Assembly: GCF_000771405.1 (NCBI RefSeq)
Contig: NZ_JDUI01000013.1
Span: 1 to 64,000 of the forward strand
Direction: 5' to 3'
DNA: 64,000 nt
Origin: Bifidobacterium pullorum DSM 20433
GTDB taxonomy: Bacteria; Actinomycetota; Actinomycetes; Actinomycetales; Bifidobacteriaceae
Shown here: positions 35,919 to 40,614 of the stretch, in pieces
How the letters are laid out: the number at the start of each line of letters is the position of its first letter
Position numbering within the stretch: position 1 is the first letter of the stretch
The notes under the pieces: model-generated
Database searches by the model: none
Told to the model about the DNA's origin: nothing
The model's input: the letters and a program-made list of their open reading frames with translations, nothing else
Position numbers and translations under genes: made by a program

Positions 35919-36376
35919 GCATGGCCGCACAGGTTCGCAGCGTCCATTCGTCGCCGGCGCCCGCCGGACGGCCGGAACGCCACGCCGACGTCCCGTCGCG
36001 CCCGCAGCTGCGCGTCGTCGGTGGCGGCCGCGCCACCGCGGGCAAGGCGGTGCGCGGATTCCGCCGTTTGCTGGAGTGGACGCGTACCCGCACCACGCCG
36101 TTGTTCCATATCACCGTCGCCGTGGTGTTTCTGGTGGGCACGCTGTTGGGGGCGTTGGCCCTGCGCACGCAGATGGTGGAGATCGCCTTCGAGTCCAGCC
36201 AGGTCGAGTCGCGCATCGAACGACTGTCGCAGGACGTGGAGGACGCGCAGACCCAACTTGACCTGCTCAAGGCCTCCCTGCCGGAACGTGCCCAGGAGAT
36301 GGGCATGGTGCCGCAGGAGGGGTCGATCACGATCGATCTGAACGGCTACAACACCAGTGAAGGCGGAACGCAATGA
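35915..36376 (+). CDS. ftsL: FtsL-like cell-division membrane protein
   Basis: A 153-residue bitopic protein placed between rsmH and ftsI, the normal ftsL position. A Pro/Arg-rich cytoplasmic tail (about 1-60) precedes one membrane helix (about 66-86, ITVAVVFLVGTLLGALAL) and an extracellular coiled coil (about 90-130, VESRIERLSQDVEDAQTQLD) ending with a proline-containing tail. This layout, not sequence identity, supports FtsL, which with FtsB and FtsQ activates FtsW/FtsI. It overlaps rsmH and ftsI by 4 bases each. FtsL is too divergent for a stronger statement. Confidence 0.85.
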   Translation: MSMAAQVRSVHSSPAPAGRPERHADVPSRPQLRVVGGGRATAGKAVRGFRRLLEWTRTRTTPLFHITVAVVFLVGTLLGALALRTQMVEIAFESSQVESRIERLSQDVEDAQTQLDLLKASLPERAQEMGMVPQEGSITIDLNGYNTSEGGTQ

Positions 36377-38184
36377 AACGTGGACGTATCCGGGCATCCG
36401 GACTGGGGCAATTCGCCAACCGGTGCATCGCCATCGGTGTGGTGCTGGCCTTCATGGCCGTGCTGTGCCTGGGCAAGCTCATCGGCGTGCAGCTGCTGGA
36501 GGGTCGCGCCACCGCGCAGGCGGCCACGCAAAGCCGCACCATCACGGTGCCGATCCGGGCGAAGCGCGGCCGGATCCTGGACACCAACGGCAATGTGCTG
36601 GCGCAGAGCGTGGAACGCTACAACCTGATCGGCGACCCGCTGGCCGCTTCGACGTTCGTGCCGGTGGCCTGCGACTCCGCGGAGGAGAAGTCGCTCGGCT
36701 ACTGCCATCAGATCGACGGACAGCCGGTGGGCGCCACCGGTGCCGCCGCCGTCGCCCGCCTGCTCGCCACGGTGCTGGATGACGTCGATCCGCTGGAACT
36801 GGGGGCCCAGCTGGACGGTACGGGACGCTACCTGGTGCTTCGGCGTGACCTGACGCCGGAGGTCAAGCGCAAGATCGACGACCTGCATCTGGCCGGTGTG
36901 GTGTACTGCGAGCTGAGCAGCGACCGCATCTACTCGACCGGCACCCAGCTGGGGGCGCTGCTGGGCGGCGTGGACAACGACGGCGTGGGCGTCAACGGCA
37001 TCGAGCAGATGATGGACGAGAGCCTGACCGGCACCGACGGCTATGAGGTGTACCAGCGCGGCAACGGCGGCGAGGAGATCCCCGGCACCCTGACGGATTC
37101 GCAGGAGGCCGTGGACGGCAGCGACGTCAGGCTCACCATCGACCAGGACGTCGATTGGTACGTCAAGAAGGTGCTGATGGACGGCGTTGAGGAATTCGAC
37201 GCCTCATGGGCGATCGCCGTGGTGATGGACCTGCAGACCAATGAGATCGTGGCGCTGGAGGACACCGACCAGATCGAGGCGGGCAGCGACGACGCCAAGC
37301 TGAACGGTTCCCGGGCGGTCGGCGAGACGTTCGAACCCGGCTCGATCGGCAAGGTCATCACGATGGCCGGCCTGTTGCAGACGGGGTTGCACAAGGCCAC
37401 CGACCAGTTCATCGTGCCGTACAGCTTCACCAAGGACGGCCAGGAGTTCCATGACGCCACGGGGCACGGCGACGAGCATTGGACGCTGGCCGGCATCCTG
37501 CAGAACTCGTCGAACGTCGGCACGGTCATGGCCAGCGAGAACTACAGCAACGAGCAGCGCTACGAGTTCCTGACCAAGTTCGGCGTCGGCCAGCCCACCG
37601 GGCTGAACCTGCCCGGCGAATCCAACGGCATGCTGGCCTCGGCGGATTCATGGGACGGCCGCACCCGGGACACGGTGCTCTTCGGTCAGGGCTACACCGT
37701 GAACGCGCTGCAGCTGACCAACATCGTGGCGACGATCGCCAACGGCGGCGTGCGGCACCAGCAGTCGCTGATCAAGTCGATCACCGACGGGCAGGGGCGC
37801 AGCACCTCGCCGGACAAGGGCGAGGCCGTGCGCGTGGTCGATGAGCAGGTGGCCGCGGACGTGCTCAACGCCATGGAATCGGTGGCCGAGGAATACGACA
37901 ACGTCGCCAAGGTGGACGGCTATCGCGTGGCGTCGAAGACCGGCACCGCCGAGGTGGCGGGCGCGGACGGCCGATTGACGTCGATTGTGTGCGACTGGTC
38001 GGGCATCATTCCCGCCGACAACCCGCGTTTCGTGGTCACCGTGGTGATCAAGGACCCGCAGAAGGGTGGTTTCGGCGGTCTGACGGCCGGCCCGCTGTTC
38101 GCCAGGATTGGTGAATTCCTTATGCAGAAATACGAGGTGCCGGCCTCCGAGCCGCGGACCGATGCTATTCCGGTGGATTGGTGA
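36373..38184 (+). CDS. ftsI: Septal transpeptidase FtsI (class B PBP)
   Basis: Class B penicillin-binding protein of 603 residues that cross-links septal peptidoglycan. A short cytoplasmic tail and one membrane helix (about 17-38) precede the PBP dimerisation domain (RAKRGRILDTNGNVLA about 61-76). Transpeptidase motifs are SIGK at 324-327 (catalytic Ser324), SSN at 379-381 and KTG at 522-524. It ends after the transpeptidase domain, with no PASTA repeats. It overlaps ftsL by 4 bases and works with FtsW, encoded further along the same cluster. Confidence 0.97.
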   Translation: MKRGRIRASGLGQFANRCIAIGVVLAFMAVLCLGKLIGVQLLEGRATAQAATQSRTITVPIRAKRGRILDTNGNVLAQSVERYNLIGDPLAASTFVPVACDSAEEKSLGYCHQIDGQPVGATGAAAVARLLATVLDDVDPLELGAQLDGTGRYLVLRRDLTPEVKRKIDDLHLAGVVYCELSSDRIYSTGTQLGALLGGVDNDGVGVNGIEQMMDESLTGTDGYEVYQRGNGGEEIPGTLTDSQEAVDGSDVRLTIDQDVDWYVKKVLMDGVEEFDASWAIAVVMDLQTNEIVALEDTDQIEAGSDDAKLNGSRAVGETFEPGSIGKVITMAGLLQTGLHKATDQFIVPYSFTKDGQEFHDATGHGDEHWTLAGILQNSSNVGTVMASENYSNEQRYEFLTKFGVGQPTGLNLPGESNGMLASADSWDGRTRDTVLFGQGYTVNALQLTNIVATIANGGVRHQQSLIKSITDGQGRSTSPDKGEAVRVVDEQVAADVLNAMESVAEEYDNVAKVDGYRVASKTGTAEVAGADGRLTSIVCDWSGIIPADNPRFVVTVVIKDPQKGGFGGLTAGPLFARIGEFLMQKYEVPASEPRTDAIPVDW

Positions 38185-38208
38185 TCACTGTAAGGAGAGG
38201 CGGGGCCG

Positions 38209-39093
38209 ATGAGCATGGTGAGCGGTTCGGGCGCGTGCCGGATGACCTTGGCGGATCTGGCGTCGCGGTACGGCTTCGAATTGGTGCCCCGGTTCGCGCA
38301 GGGGGTGACGGTGACGTCGCTGGCCGATGACGTGGATTCGGTGATTCCCGGTTCGCTGTATGTGCCGTCGGGCGCGGTGAACATGGAGCGTCTGGAGCGT
38401 GCCGTGGCGCGGGGCGCCTACGCGGCGTTGGTGCCGCGCGCGTTGCGCGGCGCCGGCGAGCGGCTGTCGATTCCGCTGCTGCTGGGGGATTATCGGGATG
38501 GGCAGGTGGCGGCCATGGCCGATGCGCTGACGGGCGCGCCCGCGCAGGCGCTGGCGATGTTCGCCTGTCTGGGGCGCGACGCCTCGTCGAGCGAACGCAT
38601 CGCCCGGCAGCTGGGGGAGTTCCTGCATATGCTGGGCAATCCGGTGGGGGTGCTCTGCGCCTCCGATACGCAGTCGCTGGACCGGTACGTCGATATGCGG
38701 TTCCCGTTGGGCGTGCTGGACGTGCGCAGGACACTGTCGGTGTGTCTCGAGGACGGGGCCTCCGCCATGGTGATTGCGTTGGACGACGACACGGTGCGCC
38801 ACGGCGCGTTGTGCGCGGCCGACATCGATGTGCTGGGCATCGAGGCCGATACCGATGCCGAGCGGGACGTGATGGATGAGCGCGCCCGCCGGATGTACGG
38901 ATATGTGATGGACGAACGCGGGCGGGTGGTTGGACGCACCGCGGAATCCGACGCCTTCGCTCGGCAGGCGGCCGACATCGAGGGCGGAGAGTCGTGGCAG
39001 ACGCTGTCCCTGGTCATCGCGATGGCGATGGCCGCGGGCGTGCGCCGGTCCAATATCAGGAGCGCCTTGCGCGTGTCCCGGGAATTGTCCTGA
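38209..39093 (+). CDS. Degenerate MurE-like protein without ATP-binding site
   Basis: A 294-residue protein sitting exactly where murE lies in dcw clusters, between ftsI and murF. Its N-terminal part (about 11-75: TLADLASRYGFELVP, VTVTSLADDVDSVIPGSLYVP, then RAVARGAYAALVP) follows the MurE N-terminal domain pattern. The next part lines up with the MurE central domain, but the P-loop GTNGKTT is replaced around residues 116-125 by ACLGRDASSS, and no TNL or SSHxL motif is left intact. The C-terminal ligase domain is missing; real MurE has about 480-530 residues. It therefore cannot be a normal ligase. AGGAGAGG precedes the ATG. The reading frame is intact, so it seems retained rather than decaying. 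The homology is my own alignment by eye. Confidence 0.7.
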   Translation: MSMVSGSGACRMTLADLASRYGFELVPRFAQGVTVTSLADDVDSVIPGSLYVPSGAVNMERLERAVARGAYAALVPRALRGAGERLSIPLLLGDYRDGQVAAMADALTGAPAQALAMFACLGRDASSSERIARQLGEFLHMLGNPVGVLCASDTQSLDRYVDMRFPLGVLDVRRTLSVCLEDGASAMVIALDDDTVRHGALCAADIDVLGIEADTDAERDVMDERARRMYGYVMDERGRVVGRTAESDAFARQAADIEGGESWQTLSLVIAMAMAAGVRRSNIRSALRVSRELS

Positions 39094-39114
39094 ACCGGTA
39101 TGAGAGGAGCGGGT

Positions 39115-40614
39115 ATGGAAACCGAATCGACCATGATGCCGATGACGGTGCAGGAGGTCGCTGATGCGGTCGGTGGACGTCTGACGGTATCGGCCGGTGC
39201 GGCTGCCGACGCCGACACGGTGGTGACCTGCGCGGTCAGCGACTCGCGGCAGGTCCGCCCCGGAGCGGTGTTCGTAGCGATCGCCGGAGAGCGTGTGGAC
39301 GGTCATGATTTCGTGGGCACCGCCGGCGAGGCGGGTGCCGCCGTGGCCCTGGTGAACCATGAGGTGGACGCCCCGACGGCGCAGATCGTCGTCGACGACA
39401 CGGTGGCCGCCCTGGGCGCCCTAGCGCGGCGCAACATCGAACTGCGGCGCGCTGCGGGCGATCCGTTCACGATCGTCGGCATCACCGGCTCGGTGGGCAA
39501 GACCACGACCAAGGACATGCTGTCCGCGTTGCTGGGGGACATGGGACAGACGGTGGCGCCGGTCGGCTCGTTCAACAACGAGATCGGGCTGCCGCTGACC
39601 GCGCTGAAGGTCGGCGAGCGCACCCGGTTCCTGGTGGCGGAGATGGGCGCCAACCACGTCGGCGAGATCGCGCGGCTGACCACCGTGGCGCCGCCGGACA
39701 TCGCCGTCGTGCTGAAGGTGGGCGTGGCCCATCTGGGCGAGTTCGGCTCGGTGGAGCGCATCCTCGAGGCCAAAAGCGAGATCGTGCGCGGGCTTGTGCC
39801 CGGCGGTCTGACGATTCTCAACGCCGACGACGAGCATGTGGTCACGATGGGCGCGATCGCCCCGGGCGAGGTGCTGTGGTTCGGCGTGGACGCCGCGGCC
39901 GCACGCGACGGTGGCTGCTCGGCCCAGAACATCGACGTGGACGGCTTCGACCGTCCCCGGTTCACGCTGGTCACCCCGGATGGAGCGCGCACGCCGGTGC
40001 GGCTGGGCATCTGCGGGCGGCACAACGTGATGAACGCGTTGGCCGCGGCCTCGGTGGCGTACCGACTGGGCATGGCGCCCGAGCGGATTGGTACGGTGCT
40101 GGGCGGGCTGACCCGCATCAGCCCGCATCGCATGGCGGTGTCCACCGTCGAACGCGGCGGGGCGGCGTTCACGCTGATCGACGATTCGTTCAACGCCAAC
40201 CCGGATTCGATGCGCGCCGGCCTTGACGGATTGCGCTCCTGGGGCGACGGGGAGCACACGCGTCCGTTCCGCATCGCCGTACTGGGCGCGATGCTGGAGC
40301 TGGGCGAGAACGAGACCGAACTGCATCGCGGCGTGGGTGAGTACGCCGTCGGCAGCGGGGTGGACGCCGTCGTGGCGGTCGGCCGCGCGCAGGATCCGCA
40401 TGTTGATGCGCTGGCCGAAGCGGTCGCGGACGGGGCAAAGCGGGCCGCTGCCGAGTCCGGACAGGATGGCGTCTCGATAGACTGGGTGCATGACACCGAC
40501 CAGGCCGATGCGGTGGTCACCCGTTTGGCGCGCGATCATGCGGACACCGTGGTGTTGCTGAAGGGATCGCATGTCTCCGGGTTGAGCGCATTGGCCGAAC
40601 GATGGACGGTCTGA
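39115..40614 (+). CDS. murF: UDP-MurNAc-tripeptide--D-Ala-D-Ala ligase (MurF)
   Basis: ATP-dependent ligase of 499 residues that adds D-Ala-D-Ala to the peptidoglycan precursor. The N-terminal Mur domain shows CAVSDSRQVRPGAVFVAI. The P-loop is GITGSVGKT (122-130), followed by NNEIGLPLT, EMGANHVGEI and the C-terminal DDSFNANPDSM. The SVGKTTTKD pattern separates MurF from MurC, D and E. The ATG at 39115 has GAGAGGAG just upstream; the ATG at 39100 lies before that site. It is the only complete tripeptide-region ligase here, since the MurE slot upstream is degenerate. Confidence 0.97.
   Translation: METESTMMPMTVQEVADAVGGRLTVSAGAAADADTVVTCAVSDSRQVRPGAVFVAIAGERVDGHDFVGTAGEAGAAVALVNHEVDAPTAQIVVDDTVAALGALARRNIELRRAAGDPFTIVGITGSVGKTTTKDMLSALLGDMGQTVAPVGSFNNEIGLPLTALKVGERTRFLVAEMGANHVGEIARLTTVAPPDIAVVLKVGVAHLGEFGSVERILEAKSEIVRGLVPGGLTILNADDEHVVTMGAIAPGEVLWFGVDAAAARDGGCSAQNIDVDGFDRPRFTLVTPDGARTPVRLGICGRHNVMNALAAASVAYRLGMAPERIGTVLGGLTRISPHRMAVSTVERGGAAFTLIDDSFNANPDSMRAGLDGLRSWGDGEHTRPFRIAVLGAMLELGENETELHRGVGEYAVGSGVDAVVAVGRAQDPHVDALAEAVADGAKRAAAESGQDGVSIDWVHDTDQADAVVTRLARDHADTVVLLKGSHVSGLSALAERWTV

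Follow-up and report, generated by a model that had tools for sequence, protein, structure and literature searches.

What keeps a MurE-like protein in the murE slot of a dcw cluster after its ATP-binding loop has gone? The question is raised by an open reading frame of Bifidobacterium pullorum DSM 20433, which lies in the 64,000-nucleotide stretch analysed here (the window). Its 294-residue product, which occupies the murE slot, is called the slot protein in the following (Table 1). A preliminary description, made from the DNA letters alone, had taken it for a retained MurE remnant that may serve as a structural or regulatory divisome component.

The slot protein gene is an intact native gene

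The frame starts with ATG, runs through 294 codons and is intact. Both of its neighbours, ftsI and murF, were named by NCBIfam models, and this confirmed its location in the murE slot. The GC contents at codon positions 1, 2 and 3 were 0.695, 0.505 and 0.868. The codon frequencies correlated with those of ftsI, murF and mraY taken together at r = 0.77 in frame, compared with 0.04 in the +1 frame and 0.32 for antisense. The fit of both measures suggested that this is a native gene. The intact frame, good ribosome site and normal codon use ascribed to it at the outset were all confirmed.

Table 1. Features of the slot protein gene and its neighbours in the window
Feature	Position	Strand	Basis
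ftsI, directly upstream of the slot protein gene	36373..38184	+	NCBIfam, family level only
Ribosome-binding site AAGGAGAG, 9 nt upstream of the ATG	38192..38199	+	read from sequence
Slot protein gene (dead-by-sequence, C-terminally truncated MurE homologue, 294 aa)	38209..39093	+	ORF, profiles, fold
N-terminal tail of the slot protein, about 10 residues, mean pLDDT 55	38209..38238	+	model and alignment
MurE-type N-terminal domain, PGxxxHGA loop lost, DSR altered (domain boundary approximate)	38239..38532	+	model, alignment
MurE-type central (Rossmann-like) domain lacking the ATP site; no C-terminal ligase domain after its end	38533..39090	+	model
Site of the lost P-loop, now ACLGRDASSS	38563..38592	+	alignment to MurE
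New motif LHMLGNP, residues 139–145, before strand 2	38623..38643	+	alignment, 60 members
EDG turn, residues 181–183, before strand 3	38749..38757	+	alignment, 60 members
murF, downstream of the slot protein gene; alternative in-frame ATG at 39100	39115..40614	+	NCBIfam, above cut-off

The slot protein descends from the MurE of the same slot

Pfam, NCBIfam and PHROGs contain no family that covers the slot protein. As a single sequence, the window's protein had no match in Pfam and nothing in PHROGs. In NCBIfam it matched only the MurE/MurF model NF008896 at E 0.024, with one unrelated weak match, and it stays below the NCBIfam and Pfam cut-offs for MurE ligase. When 60 members were scanned singly against Pfam, no Mur family was found; 11 other families appeared, each in 1–2 members (best E 0.0098).

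A profile of the 60 members was then compared with PDB sequences. A MurE-MurF structure was matched at 2e-15, and 12 more Mur-ligase or PAP11 sequences were found at E <1e-3, along with one insignificant unrelated match. By hhalign, the slot protein aligned with 28 MurE proteins from other families of the order at E 6.6e-21 over 290 columns. At 23 of these 28 loci the gene is flanked by ftsI upstream and murF downstream, two (L195 and L197) have ftsI only, and three (L207, L218 and L219) have neither within 1.5 kb. The 23 verified in-slot MurE aligned nearly end to end with the slot protein (E 1.2e-20, 288 columns). The E-values were 2.6e-11 for eight other MurE (from genera g33 and g39 and genome G209), 1.9e-7 for MurF and 9e-6 for 23 functional bifidobacterial MurE. 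The best fit of the in-slot MurE profile is what one would expect of a slot protein derived from the former MurE of this slot.

We also considered that the slot protein is a copy of the genome's own MurE. This origin was rejected on the much better fit of the in-slot MurE profile (1.2e-20 versus 9e-6).

The structure predicted by AlphaFold2 from the family alignment alone, with no templates, had a pLDDT of 91.8 and a pTM of 0.87. It has the Mur-ligase fold and not an unrelated one. Foldseek placed MurE of M. tuberculosis at the top (3.3e-13). VIA-align gave Z 21.7 to mycobacterial MurE (2xja) over 272 residues, with residues 5–291 of the model lying on residues 27–373 of MurE. By this alignment of the predicted model, the slot protein ends where the central domain of MurE ends. 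Of the three domains of a Mur ligase only the N-terminal and central ones are present, and the C-terminal ligase domain is gone, as the preliminary description had stated. Consistent with the MurE pattern noticed there, profile and fold similarity to MurE place the slot protein in the Mur-ligase fold superfamily by descent. It shares with MurE (UDP-MurNAc-tripeptide synthetase) of Actinomycetales dcw clusters the same slot, the fold of these two domains and the sequence profile.

Catalytic and substrate-binding residues of MurE have been lost

The P-loop motif GxxxxGK[ST] was found in 0 of 121 orthologues of the slot protein, compared with TGT[NK]GK[TS] in 28/28 MurE of the order; all 28 loci were used in the conservation counts for MurE. 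The columns of TGTNGKT are replaced in the slot protein, with the P-loop lysine kept in 9/121 and one structural glycine of the loop in 110/121. The exchange of the ATP-binding loop for ACLGRDASSS, first read from the window, was therefore borne out in the family.

The glutamate, DHL motif and lysine in the central domain of MurE have catalytic roles. Glutamate E215 was kept in one of the 121 orthologues and R225 in none. From the DHL motif, D242 was kept in one and H243 in none, and K257 was kept in nine. The PGxxxHGA loop and the DSR signature of MurE bind UDP or UDP-MurNAc. The column of the loop histidine holds mostly D (83/121) and the next one is a gap in 115/121, while the S and R of DSR are replaced in most of the orthologues.

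The slot protein has neither the P-loop, nor the central-domain Glu/DHL/Lys set, nor the UDP-MurNAc loops of a MurE ligase. Loss of catalytic residues in a conserved protein marks it, by sequence, as a pseudoenzyme. That it would be catalytically dead is well supported by the alignments and the predicted model. Binding of UDP-MurNAc peptides, which had been proposed as one role of a scaffold, is disfavoured in the manner of MurE because the PGxxxHGA loop is lost and DSR is changed. Compared with MurE, the slot protein is without the P-loop, most other catalytic residues, the UDP loop and the C-terminal domain, and it has motifs that are newly conserved.

The slot protein is retained under strong purifying selection

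Matches were found in 64 of 99 relatives, 61 of them in the genus (own genome included) and three outside. The three outside are frames of 536–559 aa between ftsI and murF, i.e. full MurE. In the family Bifidobacteriaceae, 177/189 genomes had a match at E ≤0.001. The slot protein is present in all 161 family genomes with ≥90% completeness and ≤5% contamination, and the 12 family genomes that had no match at E 0.001 are all 57–89% complete. Among the matches listed at E ≤0.001 for the relatives and the family genomes, no internal stop was seen when the frames were checked for decay. In the best 80 of 109 matches, the named carriers included species of Bifidobacterium, Gardnerella and Bombiscardovia.

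The 121 orthologues, extracted from 121 genomes, are all open and have lengths of 280–414 aa. The length variation among the printed rows is largely due to an insert near residue 215, to which L081 adds one near residue 58. In L068, L087, L090 and L098 the insert near residue 215 is long, hydrophilic, and serine- and acid-rich. The gene is followed by murF in 121/121 loci and preceded by ftsI in 114/121, and the seven exceptions all belong to genus g41. When the A1 profile was used on 396 genomes of the order, with at most six candidates scored per genome, 45 had a match at 1e-20, 35 of them in the family. The 10 matches outside the family are all frames of at least 536 aa, taken as full MurE, and no truncated slot protein was found there.

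The dN/dS of the slot protein had a median of 0.094 and a range of 0.031–0.186 in 29 close pairs. The pairs were hand-picked (30 in all) among the fetched loci, share genomes and are not independent; L150–L151, with a dS of 0.004, was left out of the medians. For the neighbours, trimmed to the region that aligns with the proteins of the window, the medians were 0.131 (murF) and 0.079 (ftsI, 26 pairs). The value of the slot protein was below that of murF in 23/29 pairs and below that of ftsI in 8/26. The slot protein is under strong purifying selection, about as strict as that on the adjoining working genes and not stronger than that on ftsI. A protein that is dead by sequence yet guarded like its working neighbours probably has a new, non-enzymatic job in making the cell wall. 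The gene is indeed retained, as had been supposed from its frame, and the descent from MurE implied by the word remnant stands. The word does too little justice to a family that is fixed and constrained and in which new positions have become conserved.

A complete MurE is encoded at another locus

The preliminary description had reasoned that a real MurE must be encoded elsewhere. We found a complete one on another contig of the same genome (G000:C12:256111-257670). It scored 767.5 bits with NF001129, a model named for diaminopimelate ligase (cut-off 762). With the L-lysine ligase model NF010628 it reached 402 bits, short of the cut-off (536). The residue at this position of the stem peptide is lysine or ornithine in bifidobacteria. 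Downstream of the relocated MurE come an ORF judged ATP-grasp-like by eye, whose best NCBIfam match (E 1.4e-8) is a carbamoyl-phosphate-synthase-like model, and an amino acid racemase above its NCBIfam cut-off.

Directly before the complete MurE there is a broken second copy (L041 6279-7047 = G000:C12:255278-256046). Its 239 aa are followed by a short stretch in a different frame, which aligns with the distal end of the MurE profile. Among the matches listed, 15/189 family genomes have two adjacent MurE matches at 1e-50, which suggests that a tandem MurE pair is widespread and that one copy is broken in the window's genome. The functional MurE of the family has DDPN or DDPD in 17 of 23 sampled and no such motif in the other six. 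In G014, a single-contig genome, the MurE match is split over two frames of 258 and 330 codons (G014:C1:1414198-1415600), which is either a sequencing error or a split gene.

A separate MurE match was found in 175/177 carriers of the slot protein, 161 of them at 1e-50 and 14 more at 8.6e-39 or better. The two exceptions are G149, which is 78% complete and in which the sole match of the MurE search is the MurF-like gene adjoining the slot protein, and G210, which is 82% complete. This co-occurrence would fit a pseudo-subunit that pairs with the relocated active MurE and tunes it, although it is weak evidence because any walled bacterium needs MurE. Genome G209 (87% complete) speaks against such pairing. 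Besides the slot protein, it has a single MurE match at E ≤1e-50, a canonical MurE of the DNPR type. We consider the pairing unlikely. The DNPR-type gene (L165 4187-5779, G209:C4) encodes a protein 33% identical by BLASTP to the MurE of the window's genome. Either a switch to another amino acid at the third stem position or replacement by horizontal transfer may account for it.

Conservation of the central domain has moved away from the old active site

In the LHMLGNP motif, L139, H, G, N and P are invariant in 60 members, whereas in the same columns of MurE H and N were not seen and P is rare. The E and G of the EDG turn are also invariant in the 60 members and common in MurE, and D182 is newly conserved. 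Over the 121 orthologues, the new positions H140, N144, P145 and Y71 reach 100% (rounded), R159 98% and D182 94%, whereas E181, G183, G143 and D207 occur often in MurE as well (79–86%). The N-terminal tail is conserved despite its low model confidence, with S2, E6 and R11 at ≥90% in 70 relatives; residue 6 is G in the window's own protein.

We then divided the central domain by a mechanical midpoint rule into a top, the side after the strands with the old active site, and a bottom, the side before the strands. At 90% conservation, the slot protein has 17 bottom and 7 top positions and MurE has 5 bottom and 14 top, a comparison of pattern and not of amount since the two sets differ in breadth. 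The shift gave a Fisher p of 0.006 at this threshold, 0.017 at 80% and 0.0002 at 95%. These results suggest that the constraint on the central domain may have moved from catalysis to the opposite surface. Some of the conserved bottom positions may be turns that stabilise the fold, and a conserved position is in itself no proof of contact with a neighbour.

Some of the new positions lie on the top side. In the family, S156, R159, T195 and a serine at 154, where the protein of the window has T, are conserved at ≥92%; none of the 28 MurE has these residues in the corresponding columns. S156, R159 and T195 could mean a new ligand site, and the slot protein would then be a sensor that binds a small molecule at the old active-site side and regulates precursor synthesis. 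The UDP loop and the ATP loop are gone, however, and most of the conserved central-domain positions are on the other side, so a sensor also appears improbable to us.

The slot protein probably arose once

In two MurF trees, 34/34 sampled carriers fell on one side of a branch with supports of 100/99 and 100/97. Genera g33 and g39, whose murE slot is empty or unlinked, fell on the other side. The trees are unrooted by themselves and were drawn with midpoint roots. The first (100/99) included three MurE outgroup rows, L195, L197 and L207; the rebuilt one (100/97) left out these rows and two very long family rows, L188 and L189. The simplest reading is one origin, with no observed loss in near-complete genomes.

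In G111 (g33), all four g39 genomes (G204–G207) and G226 (g45), murF comes directly after ftsI and the murE slot is empty. No ftsI was found within 1.5 kb before murF in G108 and G110, and no clear dcw murF in G109, G199 and G203. The loci with empty or unlinked slots are L178–L180, L183–L185, L189 and L191. The MurE of g33 and g39 is of a type different from that of bifidobacteria. Since g33, g39 and g45, all represented by incomplete genomes, have Mur genes without the slot protein, peptidoglycan itself does not appear to require it.

The slot protein is kept in genomes with no detectable FtsI and FtsW

The genomes of genus g41 are reduced to 0.6–0.9 Mb. In G212 and G215, the dcw block consists of rsmH, the slot protein gene, murF, mraY, murD, murG and murC (names by NCBIfam; murG and ftsW slightly below cut-offs). 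It has no room for ftsL/ftsI and ftsW at the positions that they hold in the window. The loci L331, L332 and L333 (G212 and G215) belong to this reduced-genome group, without detectable FtsI and FtsW. In six of seven g41 loci rsmH lies directly upstream of the slot protein gene, and the seventh is at a contig end.

Each of the six g41 genomes searched has one SEDS protein and two transpeptidases, a class-B-sized PBP beside the SEDS protein and a larger one. A second SEDS-PBP pair was found in none of the six, and FtsI and FtsW were not detected. The G212 pair shares synteny with the RodA-PbpA locus in the genome of the window, and its SEDS protein is 46% identical to the RodA encoded there and 26% to FtsW. 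In three g41 pairs, the dN/dS of the slot protein was 0.046–0.101.

The position of ftsI directly upstream in most loci would suit a divisome component that works with FtsI/FtsW at the septum. The g41 genomes disfavour this reading, because they keep a constrained slot protein, between rsmH and murF, where FtsI and FtsW were not found. The division role proposed in the preliminary description was thus not borne out, and we regard it as rather unlikely. FtsZ is still present in g41, so other contacts with the division machinery could persist. The job of the slot protein seems independent of FtsI or FtsW, and the gene stays with the cytoplasmic Mur genes.

A putative adaptor of cytoplasmic precursor synthesis

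That the slot protein is a pseudoenzyme we regard as nearly certain. We give about an even chance to a non-catalytic role in cytoplasmic precursor synthesis, most likely as an adaptor among Mur proteins. The handover of the reaction to a second MurE, encoded at a different locus, would date to an ancestor of the main Bifidobacteriaceae clade. The in-slot MurE could then have lost the ATP site, the other catalytic residues, the UDP-binding loop and the C-terminal domain, while keeping the N-terminal and central domains and the position before murF. What is left would now act without catalysis in the synthesis of cytoplasmic peptidoglycan precursors. As an adaptor it may have kept or reworked the old MurE contacts with MurF and other Mur proteins, and it may hold together the relocated MurE, MurF or MurG/MraY. 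The constant linkage to murF (121/121) and the conserved non-catalytic side would fit such a putative Mur-complex scaffold, and the scaffold for Mur ligases suggested in the preliminary description is compatible with these results. The fuller version, in which a dedicated Mur-ligase pseudoenzyme has been fixed since the main-clade ancestor and organises or gates cytoplasmic precursor synthesis as a scaffold after the relocation of MurE, is tentative, with a little less than an even chance.

Two known systems provide precedents that favour an adaptor of cytoplasmic Mur proteins. In Bordetella pertussis, a MurE-MurF fusion is reported to bind MurG, and a cytoplasmic Mur complex has been proposed (PMC6420597). 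There MurE lies beside MurF, as at the slot protein locus. In contrast, the Bordetella MurE is part of a bifunctional enzyme, whereas the slot protein is separate and dead by sequence, and its contact with MurF is presumed.

The second is PAP11, a MurE-like subunit of the plant plastid-encoded RNA polymerase, in which the MurE fold serves in a complex outside peptidoglycan synthesis. PAP11 is reported to have the C-terminal domain, and most streptophytes keep many of the catalytic residues in it (PMC12681378). In contrast, the slot protein keeps neither. PAP11 was the top structural match of the predicted model by VIA-align (Z 21.9), a tie with the 21.7 of MurE, and this might suggest moonlighting outside the cell wall, as PAP11 does in plastid transcription. 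The contacts of PAP11 with the polymerase are reported to be made partly through the C-terminal domain (PMC12681378). This domain is absent from the slot protein, and the link to murF in every locus speaks for a role in the wall, which leaves moonlighting very unlikely.

The slot protein bears on the question whether the Mur ligases form a physical complex. In this family catalysis has been separated from the rest of MurE, and the rest was kept. Bifidobacteria thus offer a direct test of whether MurE does anything beyond catalysis, and the slot protein would be a bacterial counterpart to plant PAP11. Our literature searches found no description of the gene, with subscription literature largely outside their coverage, and a term search of the main text of a B. 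breve transposon paper gave no word beginning with mur or fts (PMC5514069). The gene is specific to a lineage of commensals and Gardnerella and is unnamed in the family libraries searched. Plain decay into a pseudogene or mere operon spacer, which the losses of catalytic residues and of one domain and the varying length could bring to mind, is hardly credible and was rejected on the universal retention in near-complete genomes, without internal stops among the matches listed, and on the low dN/dS, which holds in genomes of 0.6–0.9 Mb as well.
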